A DNA stretch of 64,000 bases from Chloroflexi bacterium 44-23 (GCA_001899005.1 MKUW01000021.1:1-64000), one strand, 5' to 3'. Counted from the first letter of the stretch, positions 1 through 26,668 are shown. Translations and numbers: made by a program. Notes: generated by a model not told the origin, from the sequence alone.

Positions 1-96
1 TCGGCCAGTTGATTTATAATTAACATACCAGTCCTTCTTCACCCCGCACTGGCCGCAATCCACCGGAATCGGTGGCCGAATTCACCGGAATGCGCA
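1..96. mobile_element. Possible end of an IS21-type insertion sequence
   Basis: The window opens with two imperfect tandem copies of a ~22-base unit, roughly 48-69 and 70-91, both ending in CACCGGAAT and containing TGGCCG. Repeated motifs of this GGCCGAATTCACCGGAAT kind are, as I recall them, common in the multiple terminal repeats of IS21-family elements. The stop codon of the neighbouring RHS gene lies inside this repeat, so the element appears to have inserted into the 3' end of that gene. The transposase genes would lie left of the window and cannot be seen. The boundary at about 96 is a guess. Confidence 0.4.
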
Positions 97-1962
97 TATA
101 TCTGTTAATGATGAAATTGCGTAGTCGGACATATTGAATGTATCAGAATCCCATCCAATATCCAAAAGGGTTTTTTGTTCTTTTTTGGTTAAATTATCCC
201 AGTTCGAATAATTGTTATTCTTGATAATTTGTGAAAGAAGACCTTCAGCTTTTTCCACTTTAATCCTTTGCCTACATCCGCTTTCACCAATACCGCAATC
301 AACATTATGCCCGCTCGGATCATTGAACCTAATAGGGTTGTTATTTACATACGCATACCTATCCCAACTCTGCGGACTAACAGGTTCAGGAATGATACTA
401 TCCCCCTGTACAAACCTGCCTAATTGGATGTCATACCAGCGTGCATTGTAAAAATAGAGACCCGCCTCGGCTTCATATTGGCCGGTGTATAGCTTCTTCG
501 TTGGGGTGGAACCATACGAATTTCTAACCTCTCCCCAAGCCGAGTATATTACTTCTCCTGTGACTGCTCCGGAATTATTGAGGATCATCGCTGTGGAATT
601 GATATGATCCTGGACCATGAATGAAAGATTTTTCGTTGAAGTCGTTTGGACTCTCAATCCTCCACCAGGATAGTAAATCCTCCATGTGACGTTGGCATTA
701 TCAGGCTCCATGATCTCGGTGATAAAGGTAGTCGTTCCAAAATTGCCGTGCTGCATGCCAATTGCTTCGATATCATTGATTGCCAATGGAATGAAGACAC
801 AGTACCTGTTCTCGCAGATATCAACCGGTACTATAGTAAGGTCCTGGTTGACTTTCGTTCCATTTTCCATGGTGACTTCAAAATATTCGTTCACATACAA
901 AGTGCTGATGTCACCGACTACAGAGAGTACTCTCCTGCCGTCGCCATCAAAGACATAGCGGGCTGTCAGACTTCCACCAGTAATAGTTGTCATCCTGTTT
1001 TCGGAATCATATCCCATCGTATAGGTGGTCCCACCCACTGTTTTGCTGTCCATATTACCATTGGCATCATAACTGTATGTCTCCTGGCTTCCCAAGGTTC
1101 TTACGGCATGCGGTTGATAGGAGTCATACCCATAGACTTCGGTACCTTTGCTGTAGATGTTACCGCTGGTTGGGTTGTAGGTAATGGTTTCTGCCGGTTG
1201 TCTTCCAATAGCAACTTCCGTAAGGCGGCTGAGTTGGTCATATTCATAGATCCTTGTTTCCATGAGGTTATCACTGCTGTAGGTCAAGCCGGTTATATTC
1301 CCCACTTCATCATAGCCATAGGCGATGTTGAGCAATGGGTCGATACTTGAACCGGTTGTAAAGGAGTCCAACCTGCCACCTGCTGTTTCCCAATCATTGA
1401 AGTCATAGATCTGAGAAACATCGTTGCCCATAGTGCGGCTGACCACCCGTCCGGCTTCGTCGTATTGCGTTTCATTCAGGTAATCGATGGTCGTTATGCT
1501 GCCTGACTCCCAATGATCGCTGGATACAGCATTGAGGGCACCCTGGGCGAGGTGGTCAAAGTCCAGTGCTTCTCCATTGGGTAAAACCATTTGTTTTATC
1601 TGGTCATCCGGGCGATAGGCGTAGAAAGCATGATACATACCTAGCGGGTCATCCCCTAAGGGGTCGCGGATACTTTTAATTTCATGGATCAGCCGTCCAC
1701 GCAGGTCATATTCCCAGGCCGTACTGCCGGAGTTGTCGTTCATACTGGTGCGGTAGCCAATCGAAGAAAGGCCGTAGAATCTAGCAAGATAATCATACAA
1801 CCCGATGACTGACTCGTTACGCTGGCCGGTGAACAGGTAGGGCGTGGAACTGGTAGAATATCGCTCCTCGCCAATCGGGTAGTAGCCGTTGCGGTAGACA
1901 TTTCCCAATTGGTATCTTGTCACCACAGTTGAACCCAGTGAATCAGTGAATATGAAGGCCAT
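82..1962 (-). CDS. Orphan RHS core protein, N-terminally truncated hybrid, 3' end cut
   Basis: 626 residues of RHS/YD repeat protein with no signal peptide. The first ~65 residues already look like the end of an RHS core (DSLGST, then YLFTGQ and GLYDYLARFY), but at the point where a core normally reads GRF-x-S-x-D the frame runs straight into new YD repeats. This is a hybrid of two RHS genes. A second complete core follows at the C-terminus (GLYFYNARWY, DPSGHN), then a ~75-residue tip of unknown function. The last codons and TGA lie in the putative IS21 end, so the tip is probably shortened. In intact relatives the core shell encloses a C-terminal toxin. Without an export signal this copy is more likely a silent tip cassette than an expressed effector. 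Confidence 0.75.
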   Translation of the reverse strand: MAFIFTDSLGSTVVTRYQLGNVYRNGYYPIGEERYSTSSTPYLFTGQRNESVIGLYDYLARFYGLSSIGYRTSMNDNSGSTAWEYDLRGRLIHEIKSIRDPLGDDPLGMYHAFYAYRPDDQIKQMVLPNGEALDFDHLAQGALNAVSSDHWESGSITTIDYLNETQYDEAGRVVSRTMGNDVSQIYDFNDWETAGGRLDSFTTGSSIDPLLNIAYGYDEVGNITGLTYSSDNLMETRIYEYDQLSRLTEVAIGRQPAETITYNPTSGNIYSKGTEVYGYDSYQPHAVRTLGSQETYSYDANGNMDSKTVGGTTYTMGYDSENRMTTITGGSLTARYVFDGDGRRVLSVVGDISTLYVNEYFEVTMENGTKVNQDLTIVPVDICENRYCVFIPLAINDIEAIGMQHGNFGTTTFITEIMEPDNANVTWRIYYPGGGLRVQTTSTKNLSFMVQDHINSTAMILNNSGAVTGEVIYSAWGEVRNSYGSTPTKKLYTGQYEAEAGLYFYNARWYDIQLGRFVQGDSIIPEPVSPQSWDRYAYVNNNPIRFNDPSGHNVDCGIGESGCRQRIKVEKAEGLLSQIIKNNNYSNWDNLTKKEQKTLLDIGWDSDTFNMSDYAISSLTDICAFR

Positions 1963-2035
1963 GAAATTGTAGGTTATAGTACGGTATCAGTTCCGAATTT
2001 ATAGATTATTTGCAATTTTCTATCTCCATCATTAA

Positions 2036-2995
2036 TTATGGAAATAAATTACCTTCAACTTGAAAACAATTACCGTTTTGTAATAGGTTTGTAACCTCCT
2101 CAATCGATAAACCAAGTTCTGAAATTGTCCTTAGGTAATGCTTTATAAGATCAAATCTTAGCAATTTATTTACAAAATCAGAATTATTAATACTATCAAA
2201 TACATAAACATTCATTCTAGAAATTTGACCATCAAAAAGTATTTGTGGACAAAAAGAAAATACAGATTGTTTAATAATCTCTCCCGAATATATTATTATT
2301 AAGTTTTGAGGTTTATAAATTAAGAAAAGCTCATAACCAGTATATATCGGATGACCACCAGTATATTGGCTCATAATCCAGATATCATCTGGTCTACCAA
2401 GCAGATTGAGAATGTTTTCTGGTGAATATTGTGATGGATTTTTAAGTTTTGAATTGACTTCCAATTCCATAAATTCAACATGAACGTAATTAACTAAACC
2501 ATCTAGAATTCCAAAGGTGATTACATTATTGAAACCCATGGTTTTATCAAATCCCTCTAAAAACACTTGAACAAAATCTATCCCTGAAAAATTATTTTCA
2601 AAATATTCTGTTTTAAAACCATTGGCACCCAGGTTATTTCTTAATTCATAATACGTTGTTTTACCAGGATGAACATCCCAAAAGCACGGTAAATCGCAAT
2701 TTCCTATATTATTGATAACGGCATTATAGATTTCTTTTTTTTCATCAACTGTTATGTTAACAACCGTAATCGTCGGAGTTGGGGTTGGAGTTGGAGCTTT
2801 AACAATTGGAATCTTCGAGGGATGTCGGGTAAATATCGCAGTTGGAAGCACTATTTTTGTGGATGTGGTAGATGGAGTAATCTTTAATTCAAGTGTTTCT
2901 GGAAACTTTGTAGTGGTTGGTTTGATTGAATTTGTATTACCTCCACATGAAGTTAAGAAGAAAACTAAAACGAAAATTAGGTTGATTTTTTTCAT
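2036..2995 (-). CDS. Putative lipoprotein, candidate immunity protein
   Basis: 319 residues if translation starts at the ATG at 2995, which has AGGGA about 5 bases upstream; an in-frame start at 3022 is less convincing because it puts nine residues before the signal peptide. The N-terminus is MKKINLIFVLVFFLTSC, a classic lipobox signal peptide, so the protein should be anchored outside the membrane. A low-complexity stretch rich in Pro and Thr (TPTPTPT) follows as a spacer, then a globular domain that I do not recognise. It sits directly downstream of the RHS-metallopeptidase gene, the place where an immunity gene is expected. That role is inferred from position only. Confidence 0.6.
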   Translation of the reverse strand: MKKINLIFVLVFFLTSCGGNTNSIKPTTTKFPETLELKITPSTTSTKIVLPTAIFTRHPSKIPIVKAPTPTPTPTITVVNITVDEKKEIYNAVINNIGNCDLPCFWDVHPGKTTYYELRNNLGANGFKTEYFENNFSGIDFVQVFLEGFDKTMGFNNVITFGILDGLVNYVHVEFMELEVNSKLKNPSQYSPENILNLLGRPDDIWIMSQYTGGHPIYTGYELFLIYKPQNLIIIYSGEIIKQSVFSFCPQILFDGQISRMNVYVFDSINNSDFVNKLLRFDLIKHYLRTISELGLSIEEVTNLLQNGNCFQVEGNLFP

Positions 2996-3081
2996 TTTTT
3001 CCCTGTGTAAATTCTCTTGCAAGTTAATGGATATTTATTTAATTAAATTTTAAACCCTACATCAGACCAAATTAATTGTTT

Positions 3082-4467
3082 TTATTTATTTGCGAATTGA
3101 TAAATATAGGTTCCCATATAAGCTTGCATAAAGCCATTTCTAATATTTCCAGCTTCATCAACCGAAAAAGAACCTTTTACCCAATTAGCAAACATATCCG
3201 CAAATTCCTCACTAGCCGAATTCCAATCATTCCATCGGGTACCATGGTATGCATAAGGTGGAACAGAATCAACGTATCCGCTAAATGTTCTGTCCCATTT
3301 TGTCTCATACCCATTACCATCTGGACTCAATACGCGATGTAAACCTGTGATGAATTGGAGATCGGAAGTAAATAAACTTGATTTTGCCAATAAATTATAT
3401 GGGCTTAAACCTTCAATATTCTCGTTAATAAATGTTGCATTAAACGTGTGCCCGAACTCATGAATTACCAAGCCTGTATCGAAATTTACATTGGATAAAC
3501 AAGAAAAGCCGACTCCTGATGCCTCACAAAAACCACCTGCTGTTGTTGATTTCCTCACCGAAACACCATTGCGAAATACAGCCCTAAATATTGAAGATGG
3601 AGATCCGTTGATAAAAGAACTATATGAGTAGAACTTACTTCCTATACTCCGGATGCCCGCATATATTGTACTTAATTCTTTGGTAGACCAATCACCAAAA
3701 GTGGCAACTCCATATTCCAGTAACTTTGTTATATAGATGTCATTTGCTGAGTAATTTAGAGAATTATGATGTGTGCAATCATCCTCGCAAAAATAGTTTC
3801 CACTCGGATCACTATATCGCACCGGATTCCCATACCCATACAGCCAGACATTATAGGACATCGGCATACCCTCATCCCCCGTCCAAGTATCCCGACTCAT
3901 AAACCGTCCGCTTGCCGTGCTGTAATACCGCGCTCGCAGATACACCAATCCTGTTTGCGGATCATACTGCTCGCCCGTAAAGGCGTAGCTTGTATCGCCG
4001 GTGCCCTGGCTGGACAGCACTTCCCCATACGGCTCGTAGCTGCGTAACAAAGTGATCTCTCCCTCTTCGTCCGTCAGCATGCGCACCGAACCTAGTGCGT
4101 CTCCCAGGAAGTACTCCTTCTCTTCGCTGCTGTTTTCCTGCATGATCCTTGCATTCCCATTCAGGTAGCTGTTCGTCCCCTCTGCCAGGACTTGCGTCAG
4201 CCCGCCCGCCAGATCCAGCACATAATCGGTGGTGACTTCGTTGACCGTTTCACTTACCCGGTCTCCCAAGCCATTGTAACTGTAACTTCTGGTGTTCACC
4301 CCATCCGTCACGGTCTTGAGCCGGTTGGCATGGTCGTAGGTATAAGTGTATTCTCCATCACTGAGCAGGTTGCCGTTATTATCCCAGGTGTAATTCACTG
4401 CGTTCACGCTCACCAGGCGGTTGGCAGCGTCGTATGTGCTCGGGATGATATCAATCTCCAAAACCAC
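3082..4467 (-). CDS. Orphan RHS core with C-terminal zinc metallopeptidase tip
   Basis: 461 residues with no signal peptide. Residues ~1-225 are YD repeats and an RHS core (DALGSVR, GLVYLRARYY, GRFMSRD, RYSDPSGNYF). The tip after DPSG carries HEFGH at residues 336-340 within a hydrophobic VIHEFGHTF context and EEFADMF at about 420-426, which fits a zincin with two His and a downstream Glu as ligands. Zincin tips are known polymorphic-toxin domains. The ORF overlaps the upstream 126-residue gene by 17 bases and lacks the large N-terminal shell of the main RHS gene, so it is probably a displaced tip cassette. Whether it is translated alone is uncertain. Confidence 0.75.
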   Translation of the reverse strand: MVLEIDIIPSTYDAANRLVSVNAVNYTWDNNGNLLSDGEYTYTYDHANRLKTVTDGVNTRSYSYNGLGDRVSETVNEVTTDYVLDLAGGLTQVLAEGTNSYLNGNARIMQENSSEEKEYFLGDALGSVRMLTDEEGEITLLRSYEPYGEVLSSQGTGDTSYAFTGEQYDPQTGLVYLRARYYSTASGRFMSRDTWTGDEGMPMSYNVWLYGYGNPVRYSDPSGNYFCEDDCTHHNSLNYSANDIYITKLLEYGVATFGDWSTKELSTIYAGIRSIGSKFYSYSSFINGSPSSIFRAVFRNGVSVRKSTTAGGFCEASGVGFSCLSNVNFDTGLVIHEFGHTFNATFINENIEGLSPYNLLAKSSLFTSDLQFITGLHRVLSPDGNGYETKWDRTFSGYVDSVPPYAYHGTRWNDWNSASEEFADMFANWVKGSFSVDEAGNIRNGFMQAYMGTYIYQFANK

Positions 4468-4831
4468 ACTCCCATATTTTGGTTTTATTTGTATAACCGC
4501 AGCCGTAATTTGGCTCCAACATGTACGAAATAATGAATCCGTTTAGGTCATCTGTGGAATAGAATACTTCTTTCCCCATTCTGTCTTTAGGAATTGTCTT
4601 TGCATAATAGGTAGGGGTTATGTCATAAAGTTGATCAGGAAATTTATCGTTAATTTTTTCAAATTCATAAATTGCGTTAATGATAGTTTGTACCTCTATC
4701 ATAAACTCTTCTTTCTTCCGCTGCTGCAATTCGTTAATGAAAAGAAAAATAATTATCATTAAACAAATGAAAACTAAACTCGCCAATATTTTTTTTTTGC
4801 CCATAGATAGCCTTTTAATTTCCATACGCAT
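4451..4831 (-). CDS. Small membrane-anchored protein, candidate immunity to the amidase tip
   Basis: 126 residues. After a short basic N-terminus there is one membrane segment at about residues 14-32 (ILASLVFICLMIIIFLFI), then a soluble domain resembling the periplasmic part of pilin-like or small inner-membrane proteins, with no motif I can name. Its start at 4831 overlaps by 17 bases the end at 4815 that the amidase-tip frame would have without its internal stop, so the two were translationally coupled. Together with the membrane anchor, this fits an immunity protein acting outside the cell. The function is inferred from position only. Confidence 0.55.
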   Translation of the reverse strand: MRMEIKRLSMGKKKILASLVFICLMIIIFLFINELQQRKKEEFMIEVQTIINAIYEFEKINDKFPDQLYDITPTYYAKTIPKDRMGKEVFYSTDDLNGFIISYMLEPNYGCGYTNKTKIWECGFGD

Positions 4832-4970
4832 AATTTAAAGAAACCACAGTATAGTCGAGGTTGATACCTGGACATCTGGTTGTATTAAAATGATTGTGAC
4901 CAGCAATCAAGTCTATTGTGTACAAGAAGTCCAGATAATCCACTAAATTCTCGAGAGATTGCTCTTGCGT

Positions 4971-4973
4971 TTA
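4971..4973 (-). other. In-frame TAA splitting the amidase domain
   Basis: On the minus strand the codons read GTT CTT TCA TAA ACG CAA GAG, with amidase-family sequence on both sides in the same frame. One base change (for example CAA to TAA) would explain it. Confidence 0.8.
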
Positions 4974-5868
4974 TGAAAGAACATCAGCTGGTTCCTTTTT
5001 TATTTTTATCTCGCCGATGAGAGGAAGATCAACGTAATCATCTGGTTCAAAGTCACCCGCAACTAATATTCCGATTTTTCCAGAGTTTCCACCCTCAACA
5101 TGGGCTCCACGTACCCCAATATTTCGTCCCGCATAAATTAATCCATTTTTGTCAACCATGAAATGGTATCCAATATCTGCAAAACCTTGATCAAAATGTT
5201 CTTTCTGTATGTTTATAATTGTTGGGTTATTAGTATTGCCCGCGTGATGAATTACGATTGTATCGTATATCTCCGCTAACGTTTTTTCTGGATAAAGATC
5301 TGAATAGAAAGCGTATCCACCATGGGGATTACATTCAAGGTCATAGATTCCTTCACCAATAGGATATGAAGGAATGCAGACTCCGCGTAATGGATCACAA
5401 ACTATGTTATTTCGGGGAGAGTATGCCCCCCATTCCTGCCTTGATATAACAACGGGTTTTCTCGAACATCCATTCTTGGATGCATATGATCCAATTGGGC
5501 AATCGATATATTTTCCAGAAGGGTCATTGTAATTAATCGGGTTTGCATATGTATATAGCCAGGCGTTATAGGACATAGGTGTCTGTTTATCGCCTGCCCA
5601 CGCATCCTTGCTCATAAACCGCCCGTCCGCCATATTGTAATATCGCGCCCGTAGGAACACCAATCCCGTCTGCGGATCATACATCTCGCCTGTGAAAGCA
5701 TAGTCTGTCTGTGCGGTGCCATATGTTTCCAGCACCTCCCCGTAGGGCGTGAAGCTTTGACCCATTGTAACCAAACCACTGTCATCAGCAATTTGCCTTA
5801 CACTTCCTAATGCATCCGGAAGAAAGTAGTCAGTTTGCGTCTCGGTTACCTGAGCAATGCGGTTGACC

Positions 5869-5964
5869 CCATACAAGTAAGTATTCGTCCCGTTTTGCAA
5901 GACTTGTGTCAAACTTGATTGTATATCCAGCACATAGTCCGTTGTCACTTCGTTGACCGTCTGG
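5869..5964 (-). repeat. 96-bp core block shared with the main RHS gene (orphan copy)
   Basis: This stretch of the amidase-tip orphan matches 7851-7946 of the giant RHS gene with one mismatch over 96 bases, well above the similarity of the flanking core. It encodes the stretch around VNEVTTDYVLDIQSSLTQ. It is a plausible crossover site for tip exchange. Confidence 0.85.
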
Positions 5965-6141
5965 TTTACCCTATCTCCTAGTCCGTTATAGGCATAACTG
6001 AAGGTATCTGTGACTTTTGGGACTTCAAACAGCTTGTTGGTGAATTTGACAAAAAGCCCGCAAGTCTCGGAATAACACATTTTATCTGTATTTCCTTCGG
6101 GGTTAGGCATCGATCTCAGCAATTTGTTAGCTCAAGGATTC

Positions 6142-6663
6142 TTATATAGTATTTTCTTGTGACAGTAGATATTCTATTCTTTTGTGTACGCTACCACGAA
6201 TCTCTTCCATTTCTGGAACTAGAAGTGAGGTATCTTTCGCAATCTGTACAACGGCTGGCGGTGGAGGCAAGCGTTTTTTGTAGAGGTAGCTATAGACCTC
6301 TCTTTTCAAGTTGCGGATAGGTTTCTTTGATCTCCTATTTTGCGTAACTGTTTCCTGATAAGCAGCAATAATTTGATCATCCATCTCGCTCAGTCTATGT
6401 ATCAGCTTCACTAATTTATCTAATTGCTCTACCAGTATATAATCTTCAATTTCTTGTGTCACTTTTTCGTGCTGTCTCCAAATTCGTTCTTCGTAGGATT
6501 TATAATACTCATTCCCAAAATCTGCTAACCCTGATGCATGATTCACTATGTAGCTATTAGCAAAGGATAAACTGTCATTAGCAAATTGGGAGACTAATTT
6601 TATAAATTCTTGGCGAGTAACGTAAATAAATGTTCCATCACCGAATATATCATATCCGTACAT
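6142..6663 (-). CDS. Unknown soluble protein, candidate immunity protein of the main RHS tip
   Basis: 173 residues when started at the ATG at 6663, which has AAGGA six bases upstream; an in-frame ATG at 6699 has no such site. The protein begins MYGYDIFGDGTFIYV, is largely helical in appearance with many charged residues, and has a short PPPP run at about residue 140. There is no signal peptide or membrane segment and I recognise no family. It follows the giant RHS gene by about 100 bases on the same strand, the usual place for a cognate immunity gene. Confidence 0.55.
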   Translation of the reverse strand: MYGYDIFGDGTFIYVTRQEFIKLVSQFANDSLSFANSYIVNHASGLADFGNEYYKSYEERIWRQHEKVTQEIEDYILVEQLDKLVKLIHRLSEMDDQIIAAYQETVTQNRRSKKPIRNLKREVYSYLYKKRLPPPPAVVQIAKDTSLLVPEMEEIRGSVHKRIEYLLSQENTI

Positions 6664-6766
6664 TTTCAATCCTTTTTTAAATGCAAGATAGATTTGCATT
6701 GCATGCTCAAGGTTTCTAAATACTGCATGAATAGCTACGAGTTAAGAATCTTTATATTTCCAAAAT

Positions 6767-9700
6767 TTATGGGACAGGAGAGAAGGTAGCAAGCTTGAGC
6801 CCATAATTTATCAAGAAATAGCCACCGGGAACAGTGACAATATCATCCACCACGCCCAAGACAGTGGCATCCTCAACAATTGTCACTAGTAGTAAAGTTC
6901 CTCCAGCAGCTATAAGAACTGCGCCACAAACAGTTCCAATATCGACAGCGTAAGCCGGTTGATATGATGGCGCGCCTGGGGTCCAATTGCGTGATCTAAG
7001 CAGTCGTCGGTTTGGTACTAGTCCTTCTACAGGTTTACCAACTATAACTGGTGCATTAACATTAGGTTCGAGCCAGTAAGCTACTACGCCATTTCCAACA
7101 TAATCTGCAACTAAATCAACAAAAGGAAAAAAGCTATTGAGAGGTGATTTTCTAAATTTACCTGGCCAATCTATTCCTGCACCAACGTGGAAAAAGGTTT
7201 GATTCCAATCAAAACTCCCACCCAATAAATGACTCCCAGATAACAAATTTACCACTGCTGCTTTTTTTAAATCCGTAACATATCCCTGAACTTGAATAGA
7301 TCCAGAAGATCTTAAATATATAGGTTCGATTTCATAAACCTCCCCAATCAAGGAATTAAACATATCAGGATGCCTGAATGGTGTTCCAGGAATAGGGTAT
7401 TCTAATTGTCTGTTTGGATTGAAACCAGACATTGACTCATAATAATCTTCTATAGGCAGATGGTACATTGGTTCAGTAAGATACCAACGCCACAAGCCAG
7501 TAGGGTCAATAAAATTGACCGGATTTGCTGCGACGTAAGACCAACGGTTCAAAGATAGCGGGTGAGTATATTCCCCAGCCCACACATCCTTGCTCACAAA
7601 CCTTCCGTCCCCCGGCGCATAATACCTTGCCCGCAGATAAACCAACCCCGTCAGCGGGTCATACATCTCGCCCGTGTAAGCGTAGTCTGTCTGTGCAGAG
7701 CCATACGTTTCCAGCACCTCCCCGTAGGGTGTAAAGCTTTGACCCAGTGTTACCAAACCGCTGTCATTCGTGAGATTTCTTACCGACCCCAAGGCATCTG
7801 CCAGGTAGTATTCTTCCTCTGTATCGCTGAACTCCGCCACGCGATTGACACCATACAAGTAAGTATTCGTCCCGTTTTGCAAGACCTGTGTCAAACTTGA
7901 TTGTATATCCAGCACATAGTCCGTTGTCACTTCGTTGACCGTCTGGCTAAGACGGTCTCCCAGCCCATTATAGGCATAGCTGAACGTGTCCGTGCCTTTT
8001 GTAATTTCCAGCAGCTTGTTGTTGAAATCGTAGCTGTACAAAGATACCCCGTCATCGAGCAAATTGCCGTTATCATCCCACTCATATTCCAGGCTATTCA
8101 CCTCAATTAAACGGTTGGCGATGTCATATTCATAACTGTTCACAATCTCCGGTAGTTCCGCGCCCAGTTTCCTTACTTCGCTCAGGCGATTCCCTACGGC
8201 ATCATATTGGTAGTGGAAGTAAATTCCATCATCGTAATTGGCTTCCGTCAGACGGTAGAGGGGGGCGTATTCATAACTAATCGCATGCTCTATCACGCCA
8301 TTCTGCCCGCCCGGTAAGGTGATCACCGCTTCCGTGCAGCCTGGTATCACACAGTGATCCACCTCTCCACTCCAGAAGCGTGTCCCGGAAACATTGGCCG
8401 CAAAGCGGTAGCTGCCGTCATTCAACGTGAAGGTTATTTCACCCTCTGCGTTGCTCATATCGTCGTTCGTGACCAATACTTCACCCCGATACAGTTCTAC
8501 CAATGTTCCCTCAAAGGGACTGCCGTCCACGCCCTTGACGCTGACGGTCACAGGCTGGTTCACCACCACGTTCACCTGTTCACAGCCCGGCAGGGTGCAA
8601 TGGTTGGCCGCCCCGCTCCAGAATATGGCTTCGTTGTAATCCACCCGCACACGATAGCTCCCCGCTGGCAGGGTGAACTGCGCATCGCCGTTTTCATCCG
8701 TTACCTCTGAATAGGTTGTGTAAGTACCTCCGTCGTAGATACGCACGGTTAATCCTGCGCGTGGTTCTGCCTGTGTATCTTCCACATGCACGGTCAGCGG
8801 CTTGGTGACCGTAATCGATGCTCCCGTGCAGCCCGGTACCGTGCAGTGGTTCACTGTTCCGCTCCAGAAGGACACGCTGTTCAATTCTGTCCGAAACCGG
8901 TAACTCCCGTTTGGTAAGGTTAGCAATACTCGCCCGTTACTATCCGTCGTACCCGAGACACCTGCGTAGGTTTCGCCGTTGAATGCGTAGACCGGCAGCC
9001 CAACCTGGGGGGTTTCATCGCTGTCCAGTACCGTGACGGGGATCGGCCCAGGGACGGTGATCTGTGCGCTGGTACAACCAGGTACCGTGCAGTGGTTGAC
9101 CGTTCCGCTCCAGAAGTTGGTTCCGTTATAGTTCACCCGGAACCTGTAGCTTCCCATTGGCAGGGTAAGGTTTGCTTGACCATTCTCGTTGGTGAAGCGG
9201 CCGGTAGGGATGGGGGTGGAGCCATTAAAGGCTGTCACCAAAAGTCCTGCCTTGGGTTGGCTGGCTGTATCCTGTACCGTCACGGTCACTGGGTTGGTGA
9301 CCGTGATTCCTGCGGTTTCGCAGCCCGGTACAGTACAATGATTTGTTTCCCCACTCCAGAATGCAATGTTATCCACCAATGCCTGAAAGCGGTAACTTCC
9401 TTCATGTAAGGTAAAGATCGCTTGCCCGTTAGTATCAGTCGTTTTGCTCACCCCGATATAAGTGCTGCCTACAAAAGCTAGCACGTTGATACCCGCTTTG
9501 GGGTTCTCATCCGTATCCATCACGGTAACCGTGATCGGGTCTGTTATTGTGATCTCGGCGCTCGAACAGCCTGGTACCGTACAGTGATTGCTTTCTCCGC
9601 TCCAGAAATGAACGCCATTCACATTCGCGCGGAAGCGGTAGCTGCCATCATTCATAGTCAGAACTGCCTGACCGTTAGAGTTGGTCTGGGCACTGTAGTT

Positions 9701-12700
9701 CATGAAGGTCGTACCGCTGTAGGCATGCACCCAGATACCGGCTTGCGGTTCGTCATCCCCGTTTCTTACCTCAACGGTTACCTGTGTACCCTGCAAAAGG
9801 AACGAAGGCCGGATAGAGGAAAGGAAGCGACCGGTACTGCCGGAGATCATGTTAAAGTCATAAGCGCTTTCCTGCGCATCTTGCGCCGCCGTCTCTTGAA
9901 TACCGGCCAGTTCGCAGCCTGGAATGGCGCATTGATCACCTTCGCTGCTTTTGTAAACTTCTCCATTGATCTCAGCCCGGAAGTGATATTCACCCTCCGG
10001 CAGCAGGAAGACGGCATGCCCGTTTTCTGCGGTGCTGGCTCTAAAACCAGTATCAATCTCACCGATGTAAGCTGCAACTTCCACCCCACTCAACGGGTTG
10101 CCATCCACATCTAAAACCGAGACAGATGTGTGAGGATTAACAATGATTTTTGAGGTAGTACAGCCTGGGAAAGTGCAGTGGTCGTTTTCACCGCTCCAGA
10201 ATTGCGCCTCACCTTCCCCTGCTTCGGTGGAGAAGCGGAATTCCCCGTCCGGCAGGATGAATTGCACCTGTCCGTTACTATCTGTAATAGCCTCAATTTC
10301 GCTTTTCGTTTCTCCTTGGTAGACTCTTACGGTTATGCCTGATTGCACTTGGCCATTGGTATTTAATACAGTAACAGAAACAGGGTGCGGTATTATTACT
10401 TCCATATTATTACATCCTGGCACTGTACAATGATTGCTTTCAGCGCTCCAGAATGTATGGCCATTATACGTGATTCTAAAGCGGTAATCTCCTTTTTGTA
10501 AAGGTAGATAAACTTCACCATTAATGTCAGTCTGGCTCCCAACGCCGCTGTCCGTTTCGCTGTTAAATGCATCCACCTGAGCGCCTTCCACCAGCCAGCC
10601 CTGGCTGTCAACGATAGTAAGCAAAATGGGCTCAATTACACTGACTTGTGCAGAGACGCAGCCTGGCAAAACACAATAGTCTTCATCTGTGCTAAAGAAT
10701 TCTGTGTCGTTGTAAGCTACCCGGAACTGGTATTCTCCCAATGGCAACATCAATATTGCACTACCATCCGGCTCAGTCACTGCAAAAAGTCCGGTGTCTT
10801 TACCTTCGCTATATACCTGGATGGTAACATCTCCTATTGGATTCCCCAGGTTATCCTGTACCGACATTTCCAACTGCTCCGGTACAATGATTTCTGCGTA
10901 ATGACAGCCCTCCACCTGGCAGTGATTGTTTGCTCCGCTCCAGAAGGGTACTCCATCCACCATAGCCCGGAAGCGGTAATTGCCAAAGGGCAGTGTCAGT
11001 TGGACTTCTCCGTTTTCATTGGTTGTACCCATATATTCGGTACTGCTGCTGCCATTGAAAGCCCGTACCTGGATATCCTGCAGTGGTTCCAGGCTGGCAT
11101 TTTTGACAGCCACCGTCACGAAAGGCGAACTGCCGCCGGGGATAAGTAGGAATTCCTGCGCCTGGCTGCGGTTGCCCACTGCATCGTAGCTGTATCCGTA
11201 AGCGGCGCTGATCAAGTCGTCCTCCTGGTGGGTCAGGCTTTCCAAACGGCCGATCCCATCGTACTGATAGGAGGAAACGATCCCGTTTGGCAGATAAGCA
11301 AATAACAGACGCCCGTTCGGGTCATATTGGTAGGTCGTTTCGTGCTCGTCCCAATCGTTGACTTTTTCCAGGCGGTAAAGAGCATCATAGCTGTAATCCA
11401 CCCGCTTTTCGTCCGGGTAGGTCAAAGCGCTGCGGTTGCCCAGAGCATCGTATTCATAGCCGACCAGGTTTTCGTTCGCATCGCTCACACCTGTCACCCT
11501 GCCCAGCTGGTCGTAATACCAAACGGTATCGCCCAGACTGTCCGTCATCCCTACCCGGCGACCGGCAATATCGTAACTGAAGGATACATCCGCTTGCGGC
11601 TCGGGGTAGTCGATTGTAATCAAACGCCCTCCGGCATCGTATTCGTAAGCAATGGTTCCTCCGTTCGCATCCGTGCCGGCAATGCGCTGGCCTAAAATAT
11701 TGTAGATCTGGCTCCAGGTATTTCCCAGCGGGTCACTTTCAGCGGTCTGGCGTCCCATGGCATCATAAACGAAGGACGTCTTATCATTTCTTTCCTCCAG
11801 CAGCGCATTGGCATCCAGAATAGAAAGCCGATTTCCGTTGACATCATATTCATATTCTGTGTGTAAATTGGTTTCGTTATCCGAACCCACGGCCGGACGA
11901 TAGTTTTCCACCACGACTGTCAGGCGGCCGCGCTCGTCGTATTCGTAATGGGTAACGATCTCGTTGGCGTCACGCTGATCGGTCAGGTTGCCGTTCACGT
12001 TGTAGAAATAATAGGTCGGTACGTTTTGGTCGATGTGTTCCTCGTCTTCCGGATCAAAGACCGGCGGGGTTTCGTCGCCAATATCCTGGCCTTGCAGATT
12101 GTTGATCGTGACCAGCACACGCCCCGCTTTGTCGTAGTAGCTGCGTTGAGTCGTCCCATCCGCTGCAATTACGGCTATCGCCTGCCCATAGGTATCGTAG
12201 ACGGTCTGCATCAGGATATTCTGGTCCGGGTATTGCGGATCGAAAACCGGCAGGCTGTCTGTGAAAACGTCTTGCCCACTCAGATTCTGCACTGACGCCA
12301 GCGGACGGTTAAGACCGTCAAAATAGGTGCGCGTGATGCGACCGTAGGTATCCATACTGGCGATAGCCTGCCCAGCCTGGTTGTAGACAGTTTCCGTACG
12401 GATATTGATTTCTGGTGTTTGCGGGTTAAAGCCGGGAGGAGTCTCATCTACAATATCCTGCCCGCTCAGGTTGAGCACTACCAGCCAGATGCGGCCCAAT
12501 GCATCGAAGTAATTACGCGTGATCATCCCGGTCGGGTCGATTGTCGCAATCAGTTGCCCACCACTGTCGTACACACTACGACTGCCGGGGATGTTCCGGT
12601 CGGGAAATTCCTCATCGTATTCCGGCGCTTCGTTAACCTCCACAGCCTGTCCGCTGAGATTCTGCACACTCTGCAGCGGTCGCTGTAAATCATCAAAATA

Positions 12701-15700
12701 CGTACGGCTGATGTGGCCTAGCGCGTCAATTGAAGCGATGGCGTTACCGGATTCATCGTAGAGCGGCTCGGATGCAGGCACGTTGCGGTCCGGGTAGCCC
12801 TGGTCGTAGGCAGGCGCCTCGGTTAATGCCAGCAAGTCTTGTAGCGAAGCTTGTGGTTGGCTGGGGTCGAATAGATTGGCAACGCTCAGGTATGGCCGGT
12901 TGATTTCATCGAACCAGGTTCGGGTAATCGTTCCGGCCGGGTCAATGTTTGCAATTAGATTACCAACCACGTCAAACACCATTTGGGTGGTCACGTTTTC
13001 ATCTTCTGTACGCAATTCGGGCGGTGGTGGTGTGGTAGTTTCCACAGACCAATTGATCAGGTTCTCAACCGTGTATTCCGCCCTTTGCAGTGCGTCATAA
13101 TAGGTGCGGGTGATGCGCCCGGCCGGATCAATTGAGACAATCAGGTTACCGGTCGGGTCGTAAATGCTATCGCTGCGCAGGTTGATATCCTTATTGGCAG
13201 GATTGCGCGCTGGTATGCTTTCGTTTGAAATAGATTGCCCGCTTAAGTTCTGCACCACCGCGACGGAGCGATTGAGCGCGTCATAATAGGTGCGCGTAAC
13301 GCGGCAGGTGGCGGAGGCCGTAATAACCGGGTTTTCGCTGCTGCTTTTCTGAATCGTGCAGCCTTCCGTCAGGGACAGCGTGGCAATCAAGTTGCTGCGT
13401 TCATCGTAGATATTTTGCCTGGTGACATTGGAATCCAGACCGCGATTGGAAGCAGCCGGCGGCGAAGGAACAAAAATATCCTGCCCGTTCAAATTCTGGA
13501 CGATGAACTCCGGTCGCTGCAGTGCGTCGTAATAGGTGCGCGTAATCTTCCCATCCGTGGCAATTGTGGCAATCATGTTGCCCGCCTCATCGTAAACAGT
13601 TTGGTTGAGCAGATTATCAATGACGGTGCGGTACTCCGGCGGCGGCAGGTTGGGGTTGAAGAGATCCCAATTCTGCAGATTTTGCACGGTTGCGACCAGA
13701 CGGTTGGCGGAATCGTAGTAACTGCGGGTTATGATGCCACGCCTATCGATCGTGGCGATCAGGTTGCCGGAGACGTCATAGATGCGTTCGCTGATCAGGT
13801 CGTAATCCGGGTCACCATTTTCTTCATAGTTCTCACGGTCACAGGGATCACTTTGCGGTGATGACCCATCACCGCTGGCGTTTTCAACGCTGCGTGTGAC
13901 GCGGCCGAAATCGTCATAACAGTTCCAATTCGCGCGCCCATCCGGGGTATATTGAGTAATCATCTGCCCCAGTTCGTTATATGCGTACGCAGTGAAAATA
14001 CCCAGTTCGTTGGAGGTTTCGGCCAGTTGTCCGTTTTCATCATAAAAATAGGAGGTTGTTCGCCCAAGTGCGTCAGTGATCGATTTCAGCAGTCCCACTG
14101 GCTGCGGCGAATCCATGGCAGTGGTGTAGTCGTAAGTGGTGATGTTTCCATATTCATCGCTGCTGCTGATTAACAGCTTGCCTTGATAAACCAGGTTGGT
14201 TTCATTACCCAGGGCATCGATGATCTTGGTCAGGTTGTCGTCCGTGTATTCGAAATGGGTTAGGTTCTCCAAAGCATCACTGACCTGTGTCTGGTTACGG
14301 CCATTCTCACTCCATTCCAGTTCCGTTACATTTCCACTGACGTCTGTAAGGGTGGAAAGGTTGAAGTTCAAGTCAAAATCTTTTTCAATGGTCATGCCCA
14401 AAGCGTTTTCCTGACTTTTTAACGCGTTATCATTACCAAAATTGAACACGGTGGGATTCATGTTTGCGTCTAAAACTTTGGTCAATCCGAACCCGTTCTG
14501 ATACTCAAGTTCTAATATGAGCGTATCTGTACCGTCGAATTGACGCACAGCACGGCCTTGTTCATCGTATTCCGTCCGTTCGATGATCCTTTCGCTCGGA
14601 TCAGTTACCTGGCTGAGAAGGTGACCCACAGTGGTAGCCTCAAAATAATCATAAGTCCAGGTATTATTTCCCAGGTCATCAAATTGGGAAAGATCACCGC
14701 TGGTTTCATCGTAATAGTAAAAAACCGAGCGCTCACTTTGATCGCTAACCGTGGAAATCCTGCCTTGCAGGTCGTAGTCAAGGGCTAAAAACCGTCCGCT
14801 GACATCATCCGTTACTCTGACAAGCTGCTGCTGCCCGTTATAGGAATAGATGCGCGCGTGGCCTTCGGAATCCAACTGGCGAATAATCATTCCGGAAATG
14901 TTGAATAAATATATTGTCCCATTTTTATCTGTGAAATGATACTCATTGCCTATTTTTATTAGGTTTCCGCACAGCCCAGGATACGCCGTGAATGTTCCGT
15001 CCGGGTTGATTGTAAATTTGTACTGGTTGGCGGATGGCCCTTTTAATAAGACAATTCCAGCCTCTCCTTGCGGATCATTCGGGAAAATCAGGCGCAAATC
15101 CAGGTTATGGGTCCAGCCGTACCCCAGGTAGGAAGTATAGATATCCGTGGTCAGGCTGGAGTACCAGCGCCGGAATTCCAGTTCCCCGGTCAGAGTGGAA
15201 AAAGATATATCGCTGGTGCTATATTCCAATGCGCCAGTCAAAGTGTTGATAGGATTACCCACCGTAACTTGTGTGTTGGAGGAAGTTGAACAGAAATCAG
15301 CGCTGCTGCTATAAGTGGAACTTCGGTACACCTGTGAGGCGGTACAATTGGCAGAGGTGGAGAGATCTTCCAAATGATAAACCTGTTGTACCAGAGTATT
15401 TGCCTGTGTGGCTGATTCGGCGCAAACATAAGTATGAGCAGAACTTAAGCCAAATCCTAGTTCGAAATCGGAGGCAACCACGTAGTGCCCACTGTTACTA
15501 TGATTCGATTGCAACCTTAATTGTTGCACAGAAGGGCCAATCATGCTACCCTGAAAAGCGTTTGTTGGCACCGATGTACTCAATTCACCATTCGGGATGA
15601 GGTTGCTGAAGGATGCTATCGGTACGCCATTAAAAGAGAATGCGCTGGAATGCTCTCTAACATCATTGGAGATAGGATTCATCAACATATTCAGATCCAT

Positions 15701-18700
15701 TGAGAGCAAATTCTCTGTATTTACAAAACCGGGGATTTTGAAATTGACATCGATGGTTGGTCGGTTTGTGCAGTACCAATCATTCTTGACTGTCACCATA
15801 CAGGAATTCTGAATTTCAACCGCCTGGACTGCACCTGATGAGCAGCCTACCTGTTCATTGAAAACCTCGCTTTGATTTGAGCCACTGACTTCCATTTCGA
15901 AATCAATCTGGGTCGGTGTACCGCTTTGTCCTACTTGTTCCTCGTTGAATATCGGAATAACCTCGAATTGAATCGATTGCCCAGCACCCAAGTTGGCGTG
16001 GCTAATGTCTGGAAAAATGTAAACGTCAGCCAATTCGCCTGATGATTCGTCACGAGTGTCCAGTCGCAGGTCGCTGATAGTCTTGTCACCTACGTTTTCG
16101 ATCTGGTAGGTTGCCACACCAGTTACCGCGTCGGTGGCTATCTTTTGGATATCAACGTCGAAGGCAGTGAGTACCTCTATATTTATACTGGCTGTATCGA
16201 TCAGCGGGTCGCTGCTGCCAAGATCAGCCGTGATTTCGGAAGTCAATTGGTAATTCGATAAAATTGCATCCTGCGCGTGAACAGCAAGTCGTAACATCGT
16301 ACTAGCACCTGGTCCAAGGGTGATTGTTTCGTCCACGCTGCCACTTCCCACGAAGTTGGTAATCAAATCCGTGTAAGGATTTTGAATAGTCGCTGTAAGC
16401 GTATGTGCTTCGTCGTCGTCATTTCGGACCGCAATTTCAATAATTTGATTGTAATCGCGGTCGATTTCATAAACAGGTGTATGGTTGAGGAATGCAATGC
16501 CGGTTCCAACATTGAAGGATTGGTCGGCAATAACGGTACTACCGCAGGTGGAAGTCACGCTCAAGGACCATCCGTAATCTTCGTTATGTAACAAACCGGA
16601 TGCTTGAACAGCTTGTGTGGTAGCGCTCGTATTGGCAGTGAGGGTGTACTCTTCCTCGGGGTCGCTGGCTGCGATATATGTCACAACGCCGGTCGTAGCC
16701 GGCGAGGTTTGCCATGAGAAATTAACCGTGCCTGAACCGGTGGTCATACCTTGCACCGGACTGTTAATTTGAACTTGCGGGGATGCATCCAGGTTGAGTT
16801 GTGCCTGGTACTCAGCAGACAGTTCCGGGTGACCCTGAACATCAAGGTGTACTGTAAACGGATATTCCCCTTCTGCTTGGCAGTCTTGTGTTTCCACGGA
16901 TATCACAACAGTTTGTGATTGTCCGGGTTGTAAATGTGTTTGGCTCGGATTGATAGCGACCCAATTCGTATCCAGACCACTTTGTGATACATTGAAAACG
17001 GCGGGATAAAAACCGGTATTGCGAACCAATAAGTTAAATTCAGCCGTATCGCCAATCCCAATACTTTGTTCAACCGGGAAAAGTTGAGCCGGAAATGAAT
17101 AAGGTGAGACAATCTCCGTGTTCAGAGTGCGGGTGTTGTTGTTTAGATTTGTTTCATCCGTAATGGTAGACACTTCAACCTGGGTTTGCAATTCCTGGTC
17201 AAGCTGGGTTTGCGCGTCAAGACTCGTTACAATACCAAACTCGATCCGTTGGTTAACTGCTAGTGTACCCAGTTCCCATTCATAATAATTGCCACTCTGT
17301 GTGGGTATCACCGGTCCCGTCTGGCTTTCCAGGGTAAATTCTTCAGGCAAAGTCAACCCAAGTACAACATCCTCGGCATCAAGGCGGCTGATGTTCCGTA
17401 CGCCAATGGTGAATTGGTCTTCGTTGGCGGGAGAGCTTTTCTCCGGTCCGCTCAGCACAGCTGAAATATCACTTGTCTCAAACCGGATAGCGGCTGTTTT
17501 CCCTAGCGGGATATCATTTACCAATGGAGTTAAAGTTACTGTTTCCACCAGGGAATCCCGAACTGTGGCGAAAACCTGTCCGTTCTCGTCGGTGGAGGTG
17601 ACTGTTTGCATAACTTGTGCAGAACCGCTGGCCATAATTTCTATATCAAAATCAGGCATCGGCAGGTTGAAATTATCCCGCAAGGTAACGATAACCTCAG
17701 ATGAAGCTAATCCGCCAGCCAATACCAGGGCAGGATCAGTTGAAATTGATGAATTTGTTACGCTAATCCCCCAGAAGTTAACCAATAGTTCCTTCTCATC
17801 TTGAATGGATATATCCGTTCCTTCTAGATGCGCGGAAATGGCGATTGATTGTACAATTGTGGATGAGATTTCTGCGCTTACTTGACCAAGGCTGTCCGTT
17901 ATCAAGGAGGTTTGTGATAATTCGACGCCGCTACCCTCCGCATCTATTCGGATCTCTTTGCCGGGTAGCGGGTTCCCTTGCGAATCACGAATTATAGCAG
18001 TTACAATTGCTGAGTCGTTCTCGTTGATGGTTATTTCTGCGGGGCTTACTTCCAATGAGGATTTGAACAGGTCAATATTTTCTAGGGGTTCCGGCCAGCT
18101 AAAGCTGGATAGAAACCCATCTGTGTCTCCTTGAGGTATATAAGTATCGAAAGCGATTAAACTCAACGGAAAATCTTCGGAAGCTGTATAACCGGCAAAA
18201 ACAATATCACCAGGGTTTTCAGGTGAATTCTTTGCCAGACCGATTACATCTATCCCTGCACCGCCAAAAAAAGTAGCTTGATTCACTTTGTAATCTGAAT
18301 TTGGATCCAATTTAATAAAGAAGCCTTCAACTGTATCACTGAAATCTCTCCTAAATGCATTATCCAAAATTGGGAATCGTAAGGAACGGGTATTTCCCAT
18401 GATTACAAGTTCCTGTTCGTCTGTGATAAGCATGTTTTTTACATTATCATCACCTTCACCCCCAAAATAGGAAGAATAAATTAATTGATCTTCCGGCTCT
18501 GTTTCCGTAAAATCCAGTATAGATAATGTTGCATCATATTCTCCAAAATCTTCATAATGGAAACTTGCGTATGCGTTTTCGGTGGTCGGAAAATCAGTAG
18601 AACTTGACTTGCCGGTTAATACGATATACCCATCCTGATCGATTGCAAGCCCACCGCGCTTTATTACATCGTCATCATTACCTCCCAGGAATGTTGAATA

Positions 18701-20449: not shown

Positions 20450-21300
20450 CTTTCCCTCCTGGACCATTCATACAATGCTTTAGTTAAAAAACTACCTAAA
20501 TTAGCTCATCCGCAAAGAAACTATTGAAATAAAACGGGATTCAGTGGAATGACCATGATGAAAATCTCAATTTGGTTGTTCTGATTTCCAATTTTTGGAT
20601 CTATTTATACAAGGTGGACAGAATTCGCCCCCACTTAAACAGTATACGAATAGCCCGGATTGAATGAAAAGTGACATTTTACAAATTATTTATGACATTT
20701 ATCTATTATTATTTTATAACGATAGTGTTGCGCACAATAAAGTTCTGAAAATAGATCAATATTTTTTAGTTCCATCACAACCAGCTATTACCGTTCATAA
20801 CGGTAATCCGATTCAATTCAGAAAAAGTAAATTTAGTAACAATACATTAAGAGGCTTTCTCCTCTACTGAGTTTCAAAAGTACATTCAGTAATTTATATC
20901 TTGCTACTATACGCTTGATGTTGAATCACTTTCGGGTATTAGCAATTCCGATTTTGACAATCTTTTGGATCAAATCTTAATCTTTTGTGAAAATCAGATC
21001 TGTTATTCCTCTATTAGCGGTTTTTACTTTATGGATAAATGCCATTTCATTCTTATTAGACAACAATTAACTTAATTTATTATCTTGGATTTTCGGTCCT
21101 TTCGTTCAAATTCACTTAATCTCAAACAAGGAACCTGGACTTTTGATTAAAGCATGACCCATAATCCTCGCCTGTAAATACACTAGCAAAGCCAGCGGTC
21201 TATCGCAATAGAATAATTTGCAAATGGGTAATTGTTACAAATGATTCCAGAATTAGGAAATACGTTGAAGCATTTGAAGTTTTATTAACTTAGAGCCTGA
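20450..21300. other. AT-rich intergenic gap without a supported gene
   Basis: About 850 bases between the divergent giant RHS gene and the first pilus leader. It is visibly AT-rich, and the only frame of any size (20664-20870 +, 68 codons) has no ribosome binding site or recognisable sequence. It probably holds the promoter of the RHS gene and may hold an element boundary. I see no tRNA, inverted repeat or attachment site that I could defend. Confidence 0.6.
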
Positions 21301-21420: not shown

Positions 21421-21446
21421 ATTTAATCAAAACACAGGAGTTGACT

Positions 21447-22157
21447 ATGAACCGCATCATTCATTTTTCGATTGGACTCATATCCCTCGTTATTGCTTTA
21501 GGGGCAGGTTTTTACGGACGCAATCTCTACCTAAAAGAAGTATCCACTTACCAGGTGCCTGTACCGATCAGCGCTATCCCAGCTTTTACCGTTCTCAATG
21601 CGGACATGTTCCAAATGCGAGAAATGCCGCGCACGATGGAATCCTTACCCTATTACCAATCCATTCAGAGTCTGAGTGAAAAGATTAGCACAGTTCCGCT
21701 GCCAGCTGGTCTGCCGGTGGCTCAGGTTAACGCAGTTCCCATCGCACAATTTCGTCTTGCGGATGCAGCTTTTGAGGTGCTATCCATCCCGGTTGAACCT
21801 GTCTCTGCTGTTGGTGGACAGATCCGCATTGGAGAACGAATCAATCTTTATCAGGTGCTTCCCGAGAAAATCGACCCTGAGAACACAGCTATTTCGGCCA
21901 ACGATCAATCTACCTTCAAGGTAGAGCTCATCGCCAGGAGTGTATTGGTAGTAGATGTCCGCAATGCACAAGGTGTCGCTGCGGAATCCAACCAGAAGAG
22001 TGAGGATAACTCAACATTCGGGGGCAGCCCTCAGAACGAACAAGTCCAAATCCTTACCCTGGCGGTGGAGCCAGAAGATGTGGACGTCATTCTCACTGCG
22101 GTTGCAGCAAGCAAAAAACAAGGTGGATTGTTATGGTCAACCCTGGCACTTCCTTGA
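21447..22157 (+). CDS. cpaB: CpaB/RcpC-like Flp pilus assembly protein
   Basis: 236 residues from the ATG at 21447, which has AGGAG six bases upstream (the TTG at 21441 is less likely). One N-terminal membrane segment at about residues 5-25 is followed by a SAF-type domain (VPVPISAIPAFTVLNADMF; GLPVAQVNAVPI) and a second domain with SIPVEPVSAVGGQIRIGERINLYQV shape. CpaB/RcpC proteins support Flp pilus assembly at the membrane or wall. It is the first gene after leader A, and cpaF overlaps its 3' end by 25 bases. No outer-membrane secretin gene follows, as expected in a monoderm. Confidence 0.75.
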   Translation: MNRIIHFSIGLISLVIALGAGFYGRNLYLKEVSTYQVPVPISAIPAFTVLNADMFQMREMPRTMESLPYYQSIQSLSEKISTVPLPAGLPVAQVNAVPIAQFRLADAAFEVLSIPVEPVSAVGGQIRIGERINLYQVLPEKIDPENTAISANDQSTFKVELIARSVLVVDVRNAQGVAAESNQKSEDNSTFGGSPQNEQVQILTLAVEPEDVDVILTAVAASKKQGGLLWSTLALP

Positions 22158-23488
22158 TCCATCCAACAGCTCCACCTGCCATTCAGCCCTTAGACCAATC
22201 CGATCTGCTCCTGATTGAACGGGCCCGTGAGGAATTGGTACAGCGTGGAATCAACCCACCTAGCTGGCGAGAAGCAGACTCAGAAAAACGTCGTCGTTTC
22301 TATGATGAGGTGCGCTCTATCCTGATTGATCAGGGCGAGAATCGCAGCGTCGTCAATCGCAATGCACAAATTATCACGGATGCATTGTCCGGGGTGGGAT
22401 TGCTTGATCAGTTGCTGCGTGACCCATACGTGGAGGAAATCTTCGTCCGCAATGGGGAGGTAGCAGTGGAATATGATGGGAGCTTTTATCATCTGGGGAA
22501 ACTGGCTGATGACACTTATTTTGAAAACCTCGCTGTGCATGTTGCCGATCAAGGCGGCGCTACTTTGCGCGGAGATCGCCCAGCAGTGTTAATCGATCTG
22601 CCAGGGGGAGAACGGTTTACCGCCATCGTTCCGCGCCTGTCAACTGAGGGGACTGCAATCAATATCCGTACTTTCGGACGGCGTGTTCGCACATTGGTGG
22701 AAATGGAGCAATCCGGCACTTTTGCCAAATTTGATCCGACATCAATCGGATTAATGCAGACATTTACCAGCCCTGCCGAAAAAGATGCCAAGTCGGAACT
22801 GACCCGTCGGATCCAATCTCTAAAAGACACACCAGATCGATTTCTAGCCTGGATGGTAGCTAACCTGGCTGGCAGCCTGATGATTGCCGGTGAAATGGGT
22901 TCTGGCAAGACGACTTTACTCAACGCTCTCTCAGGTTTCTTGCCTGTATCTGCACCGATTGCTGCGCTGGAAACCTTCCGAGAATTGGAAATCCAGCACC
23001 CTTTTTTATTGCGTACTGTAGCTCCAGCTGAATTATCACCTGGCACGCCTGGCGTGACCCTGGATTGGGTCCTAAACGTCATTTATACCCGTATGAACCC
23101 GGCAGCCATCCTGGTGGGTGAGGTGGTAGGAAATGAGGCACTGCAATTCTTAAAAGCCACCTGCCTGGGGCGCAAAACATTGACAACCATTCACGGTGGG
23201 ACGATAGAAGAGTCCCTGATGCGCCTTGAACAACTTGCCCTGGCTGCAGCGCCGGAATTGGGATTGTCTGCTGTTCGCTCGATGGTTGCGATGGGATTGG
23301 ATGTTGTTGCTTTGATGGGAAGGGTCAACCGATCAGGAAGAGTTCAACGCACCTTACAGGCCATCGCCACGATTAAAGGAATTAATGCGAAAGGTGATTA
23401 TTGTTTGAACTACCTTTACCGGGCAGAAGGTGATGAGAACATCCCTGTCTTTGAACAAGCCTATCACCAGTTGGAGGGAATGAAATGA
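22133..23488 (+). CDS. cpaF: CpaF/TadA pilus assembly ATPase
   Basis: 451 residues of the type II/IV secretion ATPase family. The N-terminal domain (residues ~85-200) has LLRDPYVEEIFVRNG and ERFTAIVPRLS. Walker A is GEMGSGKTT at 253-261 and the Walker B/acid region is AILVGEVVGNEAL near 326, followed by the His box TTIHGGT. It powers pilin polymerisation together with TadB and TadC. The start overlaps cpaB, indicating coupled translation. A role in DNA transfer is possible for this superfamily, but the partners here point to a Tad pilus. Confidence 0.9.
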   Translation: MVNPGTSLIHPTAPPAIQPLDQSDLLLIERAREELVQRGINPPSWREADSEKRRRFYDEVRSILIDQGENRSVVNRNAQIITDALSGVGLLDQLLRDPYVEEIFVRNGEVAVEYDGSFYHLGKLADDTYFENLAVHVADQGGATLRGDRPAVLIDLPGGERFTAIVPRLSTEGTAINIRTFGRRVRTLVEMEQSGTFAKFDPTSIGLMQTFTSPAEKDAKSELTRRIQSLKDTPDRFLAWMVANLAGSLMIAGEMGSGKTTLLNALSGFLPVSAPIAALETFRELEIQHPFLLRTVAPAELSPGTPGVTLDWVLNVIYTRMNPAAILVGEVVGNEALQFLKATCLGRKTLTTIHGGTIEESLMRLEQLALAAAPELGLSAVRSMVAMGLDVVALMGRVNRSGRVQRTLQAIATIKGINAKGDYCLNYLYRAEGDENIPVFEQAYHQLEGMK

Positions 23489-24147: not shown

Positions 24148-24150
24148 CTT

Positions 24151-25595: not shown

Positions 25596-25597
25596 GA

Positions 25598-26434: not shown

Positions 26435-26482
26435 CCTATTTTTCAAAACCCCGCTCAAAGTGCGAGGAAAAGGAGCCTGTTT

Positions 26483-26653
26483 ATGTTGTTCGATAAGAAA
26501 GCATCCGAAATTCCACAGTTTGTTGTTGTTCTGGCGATCGCCGTTGTCTTGGGAGCAGTGGCTATCTGGGCCATCCTGAGCAATATCGGTACCCAGGGCG
26601 GCAGCATTGCGGACTGGATTAGCAGCATCGCTGTGCCGGCTGCACACCCATAA
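26483..26653 (+). CDS. Flp-type mini-pilin 1
   Basis: 56 codons, too short for most gene callers. The protein starts MLFDKKASEIPQ and continues with the hydrophobic helix FVVVLAIAVVLGAVAIWAIL, then GTQGGSIADWISSI. Size, a short charged leader and one long helix fit Flp/TadE-type class IVb pilins, although the usual G-x-x-x-x-E-Y is not present. It has an AGGAG about nine bases upstream and lies in the pilus operon before a strong hairpin. Confidence 0.65.
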   Translation: MLFDKKASEIPQFVVVLAIAVVLGAVAIWAILSNIGTQGGSIADWISSIAVPAAHP

Positions 26654-26668
26654 TTTTTTAGCAAACCT

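Follow-up and report, generated by a model that had tools for sequence, protein, structure and literature searches.

A giant RHS gene followed by probably displaced toxin tips and their probable antidotes in a Chloroflexota genome

How should a row of RHS core fragments, each carrying a different tip, be read when it stands behind a full-length RHS gene: as a store of tips for that gene, as a collection of antidotes, or as a record of tips that have been displaced from it? Such a row lies at the start of the stretch of DNA analysed here (the window), which spans the initial 64 kb of contig C21 in the 4.18-Mb draft genome of Chloroflexi bacterium 44-23, a member of the Chloroflexota. A preliminary description of this DNA had placed three RHS cores without export signals, interleaved with small genes, after an RHS gene of 4,560 residues on the same strand. 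All of these elements are present, and the shell gene, the three core fragments and the small genes between them all lie on the minus strand; the shell, counted from its first ATG, has 4,566 amino acids (aa), the earlier figure corresponding to the second methionine. We consider it very probable that this is a polymorphic-toxin RHS locus with displaced tip modules and retained antidotes, and the row in the window looks to be mostly a record of such tips. What the comparisons establish is the anatomy of the locus, the modularity of tips and cores, the recurrence of tip-antidote pairs, a related tip on the shell of a relative, and the patchwork nature of the cores in a sister array.

The giant shell gene (6767-20467), as delimited by its reading frame and by Pfam and NCBIfam scans, contains DUF7948, SBBP, Big_1, DUF6531, RHS repeats and about ten CarboxypepD_reg repeats, with the Rhs_assc_core at 7493-7735. 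It is the full-length gene upstream of the fragments, and its N-terminal hydrophobic stretch, judged by hydropathy only, may be an export signal. A family scan detects Rhs_assc_core (TIGR03696) in each of the four cores (E 5e-21 to 5e-16), which, together with the Amidase_2 match in one tip (E 1.4e-9), means that the elements are not chance resemblances. The tips are mutually unrelated and each starts directly after a DP[ST]G motif. None of the three core fragments has a signal-like N-terminal hydrophobic stretch (best 15-aa hydropathy 0.7-1.2, a heuristic only); on the same scale the shell reaches 1.8, and the lipoprotein and transmembrane protein of the row 2.3-3.3.

Reading downstream along the minus strand, the shell ends in a variable tip of 241 aa (6767-7492) with a hydrophobic stretch near its C-terminus, and is followed by a 185-aa gene (6142-6699), the probable antidote (immunity) gene of this main tip. 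The first orphan cassette (4971-6122) joins an RHS core fragment to the Amidase_2 tip. An in-frame stop at about 4971 breaks off this tip, the remainder of which follows in the same frame (4815-4970, by frame translation), with the old stop codon at 4815-4817 lying 17 nucleotides (nt) inside the next gene; the broken amidase was searched as two separate pieces. That next gene (4451-4831) encodes a 126-aa protein with an N-terminal membrane stretch, the probable amidase antidote. The second cassette (3082-4467) carries a zincin tip (3082-3810) with an HEFGH motif and a distal ExxAD; it is intact and keeps its metal-binding residues. Behind it stands a lipoprotein gene (2036-3022, likely start 2995) with a lipobox cysteine at residue 26, the probable antidote of the zincin. 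The third cassette (82-1962) has a diverged core, which shares 76% of its DNA sequence with a broken core of contig C28, and a truncated tip with no partner gene left beside it. Positions 1-96 (plus strand) recur at four further places in the genome, two of them at contig ends, and we therefore take them for the terminal repeat of an insertion sequence (IS)-like element that cuts the cassette and at which the contig stops. The three orphan tips had been described as an amidase, a zincin and an unknown: the amidase and the zincin were found, but the former is broken by its stop and the 'unknown' is cut by the IS-like end. This leaves the main tip and the zincin tip as the only intact ones in this row, and at least three of its tips, the carrier's own included, adjoin a probable antidote gene.

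The pairing of tip and small gene is clearest for the zincin. In cassettes gathered from RHS-core matches alone, the lipoprotein gene stands directly downstream of the zincin in four of four cases (the window, contig C24 of the same genome, the congeneric genome G142, and G008) and next to none of the other cassettes at these loci. The lipoprotein family, searched in its own right through 400 Chloroflexota genomes, is found directly behind RHS-zincin tips, and the reverse search finds it adjoining the tip at 10 of 11 zincin sites, a count that is partly circular because the zincin profile was built in part from lipoprotein neighbours, as the four of four is not. The exception, in G476, is a zincin-like match (E 1.9e-6) with neither an RHS core nor a lipoprotein beside it. 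The zincin on C24 cannot be aligned pairwise to that of the window (z -0.4) and is joined to it through the family profile and its lipoprotein. Three more distant zincin/lipoprotein pairs lie within one array in G210, and the profile match supports one of them. A natural variant occurs in G265 (L088:689-1405), where the tip has HKLGH instead of HExxH and the lipoprotein still follows; this toxin may have lost its activity while keeping its antidote.

Across ten aligned zincin tips H117, H121 and E201 are invariant and E118 is nearly so, and the tip in the window has the HExxH and distal glutamate ligand by which M34-type metallopeptidases are recognised. No Pfam family matches the ten tips. 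For a predicted model of modest quality (predicted local distance difference test score, pLDDT, 68.6) the best Foldseek matches are lethal factor and Zmp1, both weak (E 0.03-0.1; template modelling score 0.3-0.4), and the profile searched against PDB gives E 0.9; as modelled, the fold would resemble M34-type peptidases only weakly. The lipoprotein family is cysteine-conserved and has no name in Pfam, and its predicted structure gave no usable fold match.

The other two pairs recur as well. Of 400 genomes of the order, 3 contain the main tip, with homologues in G636 and in G135, which belongs to another genus of the same family. In G636 a homologue of the 185-aa gene directly follows the tip (z 14.4). 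The gene beside the tip in G135 is a weaker homologue (E 0.05 alone, z 9.2 once bridged through G636), which we accept because the G636 gene links both. A Pfam match of the 185-aa protein to EntA_Immun (E 0.04) fell below the cut-off and was not relied on. For the amidase, G005 has an RHS-amidase with about 50% tip identity that overlaps a homologue of the 126-aa gene (z 10), inside an RHS cassette array. Pfam gave no match above its cut-off for any of the three antidotes or for the zincin tip, and NCBIfam none for the main tip or any antidote. The preliminary description had compared the row with orphan toxin/immunity modules and had set beforehand, as its test, whether the small genes accompany these tips elsewhere. 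They do so for all three pairs, each testable small gene recurring beside the same tip family in other genera.

Tips also move between carriers. G142 encodes a shell of 6,082 aa that shares 54.7% identity with the window shell over 2,674 aa, stands beside the same Tad operon, and has as its tip a relative of the window's orphan zincin, with the lipoprotein following. In G135, conversely, the main tip of the window is mounted on an orphan core of 393 aa (57% identity). Because a relative's shell carries a related zincin tip and a relative's orphan core carries the main tip, tips are exchanged between species. The preliminary description had proposed looking in relatives for the main shell joined to an orphan tip, and G142 supplies a homologous shell with a related zincin, though not the window's own. 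It had also seen a difficulty should orphan cores prove to be complete genes in relatives; this is partly the case, as the zincin core of G142 forms the C-terminal end of a complete shell gene, which is what the orphan model predicts. In G141, the closest relative by its Tad genes (92-97% for most), there is no RHS gene at this locus, and the locus is thus variable. The Tad pilus operon itself occupies 21441-33365 of the window (plus strand), beside the RHS shell; a second Tad copy lies at C21:224168, and the 19 kb retrieved upstream of it contain no RHS genes. As a delivery route the adjoining Tad operon is a lead only.

A second array in the same genome repeats the pattern. On contig C24 (22,000-33,469) six RHS cores lie on one strand, each with a different tip and with small genes between them; the first core runs off the contig end, and its shell is therefore missing from view. 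The array includes an LHH nuclease tip followed by a SUKH_5 gene, which is a textbook toxin-immunity pair, a SMI1_KNR4 gene after another tip, and, on a further core, the zincin described above, which is followed by a lipoprotein of the 2036-3022 family. We considered whether C21 and C24 might form one array end to end; they do not overlap and the C24 cores are of another type (about 31% aa identity to the main core), and C24 is accordingly treated as a second locus. The order holds many such arrays. In G210 a shell of 2,146 aa is followed by a row of short cores, and rows of orphan cassettes also occur without a full shell adjoining (L122 and L123 in G265:C9; L124 in G201:C28).

We propose that the giant gene would encode a secreted RHS shell that brings one toxic tip to neighbouring cells, and that the gene directly behind the tip would protect the producer. 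The three downstream fragments may then be older or incoming modules, each comprising the 3′ end of a core, a tip and an antidote. According to the C-terminal displacement model developed for enterobacterial rhs loci, each new module would arrive through recombination within the core and shift its predecessor downstream, where displaced tips would decay while their antidotes may stay useful against relatives that deploy the same tip. Orphan tips, having no export signal, would probably need to be rejoined to a shell by recombination before they could act. The amidase and the zincin probably act outside the cytoplasm, since their antidotes are membrane-anchored or lipoproteins.

It is plausible, though somewhat short of probable, that the fragments persist chiefly because of their antidotes, the toxin parts being decaying passengers. 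This overlaps with the displacement reading and differs from it in the target of selection. Damage affects two of the three orphan tips but none of the three small genes, and lipoprotein-family genes occur without a zincin (L092, L093, L103, L104), as does an additional near-copy of the G142 lipoprotein that stands apart in that genome. Selection on antidotes does not readily account for a zincin cassette that has kept its metal-binding residues, or for the intact-looking toxin fragments that are common in other arrays.

A second alternative is that the row is an active store, the main gene regularly swapping its tip for those downstream by homologous recombination, as in passaged Salmonella. 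Over about 185 codons the amidase core has 74% DNA identity to the main core and the zincin core 59%, and the fourth core is detectable against the main core only at the protein level. The main and amidase cores share an identical run of 60 nt, with identical synonymous codons clustered (p 0.01), and the C24 cores, against a background identity of 80%, share identical tracts as long as 174 nt (p<0.0005 for the longest), with clustered identical synonymous codons in seven core pairs (p 0.005 or less). The patchwork of the C24 cores indicates recombination. The longest run shared by the zincin and main cores, however, is 14 nt. In Salmonella LT2 (Koskiniemi et al., 2014; PMC3967940) a main gene and a downstream orphan likewise share a common core block of about 500 bp, but tip switching there used 522 bp at 95% identity, whereas the best block in the window is 455 bp at 80% and the intact zincin cassette reaches 59%; Jackson et al. 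(PMC2935791) expected very high core identity to be necessary. With so diverged a zincin core, and the amidase cassette stopped and the fourth cut by the IS-like end, it is doubtful that this array is able to feed the main gene, and the tip switching predicted by the preliminary description is only weakly borne out. No junction of the main shell with an orphan tip was seen in the one genome of this species that was searched. Similarity to the main core drops with distance along the row, as sequential displacement predicts, albeit over three points only. We regard regular switching from this row as unlikely.

It is very unlikely that the orphan tips are instead expressed inside the cell as toxin-antitoxin modules. 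There is a reported precedent in Salmonella RHS elements (PMC7043789), and the zincin fragment begins with a GTG that overlaps the 3′ end of the gene before it and is closely preceded by GGGAG, which would make coupled translation possible. An exported lipoprotein could not easily neutralise a cytosolic zincin, however, and the substrate of an amidase presumably lies outside the membrane. That the row consists of ordinary pseudogenes left by RHS gene duplication, with neighbours that are there by chance, is most improbable: two of the three cassettes are damaged and similar broken cores lie on contigs C28 and C6, but tip-antidote pairs that recur across genera would not be expected by chance.

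Several points weigh against the displacement reading, beside the partial circularity noted above. The genome is a draft (28 contigs, contamination 2.99%) in which the array lies at the end of a contig, and the in-frame stop in the amidase could be an assembly error. The amidase pairing draws on one other genome (G005) and that of the 185-aa gene on two. The G142 shell, which lies on the opposite side of the Tad operon from that of the window, may be paralogous and not orthologous, and the zincin that it carries is a relative of the window's and not the same tip. Toxicity, neutralisation, the direction of displacement, expression of the shell and silence of the orphans, and the delivery route are all things that we infer.

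The arrangement itself is known from Jackson et al. (2009) and Poole et al. (2011), and what is new is its setting in the Chloroflexota and the previously unnamed toxin-antidote families. As in the displaced rhs tips of enterobacteria (Jackson et al., 2009; PMC2935791), a full gene is followed by same-strand core fragments with different tips, and tips are decoupled from cores, modules being attached in one strain and detached in another. The cores within an enterobacterial locus are described as identical, whereas those here are 59-80% identical in DNA, and the Chloroflexota shell greatly exceeds the enterobacterial ones in length and contains Big_1 and CarboxypepD_reg repeats. The orphan rhs-CT/rhsI and cdiA-CT/cdiI modules (Poole et al., 2011; PMC3150448) likewise combine a toxin fragment with a linked immunity gene, have no export signal, begin at a DPxG boundary, and are related to tips fused to full-length genes in other species; the Chloroflexota antidotes differ in being putative and in including a lipoprotein and a membrane-anchored protein of unnamed families. 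An HExxH metallopeptidase as a tip recalls the Tox-MPTase/ALF-type peptidases of polymorphic toxins (Zhang et al., 2012; PMC3482391), but the zincin family here has no Pfam match and is linked to a cysteine-conserved lipoprotein family. The contact-dependent growth inhibition (CDI) system CdiA/CdiB is a poorer likeness: among the best 25 of the 26 Pfam families of the shell there is no haemagglutinin family, the shell has RHS_repeat, Big_1 and CarboxypepD_reg instead, and the tips follow DP[ST]G rather than VENN. Nor do those 25 families include an SpvB/TcdB-type N-terminal part, as in the Tc toxins (TcB/TcC). Zhang et al. (2012) already listed Chloroflexi among the carriers of several polymorphic toxin domains, and the presence of such toxins in the phylum is therefore not new. 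In the open-access literature we found no polymorphic-toxin study for Anaerolineae and Chloroflexota mentioned only in passing, which, subscription papers being outside the scope of the search, is weak evidence of novelty.

Other genes of the window lie to the right of the Tad operon. At its right end, a BrxL gene (55189-59816, minus strand; a BREX Lon-like protease with a C-terminal MIT_C phospholipase-D-like domain) adjoins a PglZ-domain gene, and together these are probably a BREX-type phage defence island. A 1,990-aa protein with a NACHT/nephrocystin-type P-loop domain (46743-52715, minus strand) and the adjoining helicase-methyltransferase-like protein (43286-46642, plus strand) are possible further defence genes. 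A Rad52/22-family recombination protein (E 4e-16) is encoded at 34669-35766 (plus strand); this family is often carried by phages.

These observations extend rhs tip displacement, so far detailed in enterobacteria, to the Chloroflexota, and they name three tip-antidote pairs that are directly testable. That arrays persist with cores too diverged for easy switching favours a record plus antidote collection over a switching store, a question already raised by Poole et al. (2011). We tentatively suggest that Anaerolineales-type Chloroflexota may run a large and undescribed repertoire of interbacterial weapons, in which diversified zincin tips and their lipoprotein antidotes would be stored and reshuffled in arrays behind giant RHS shells.

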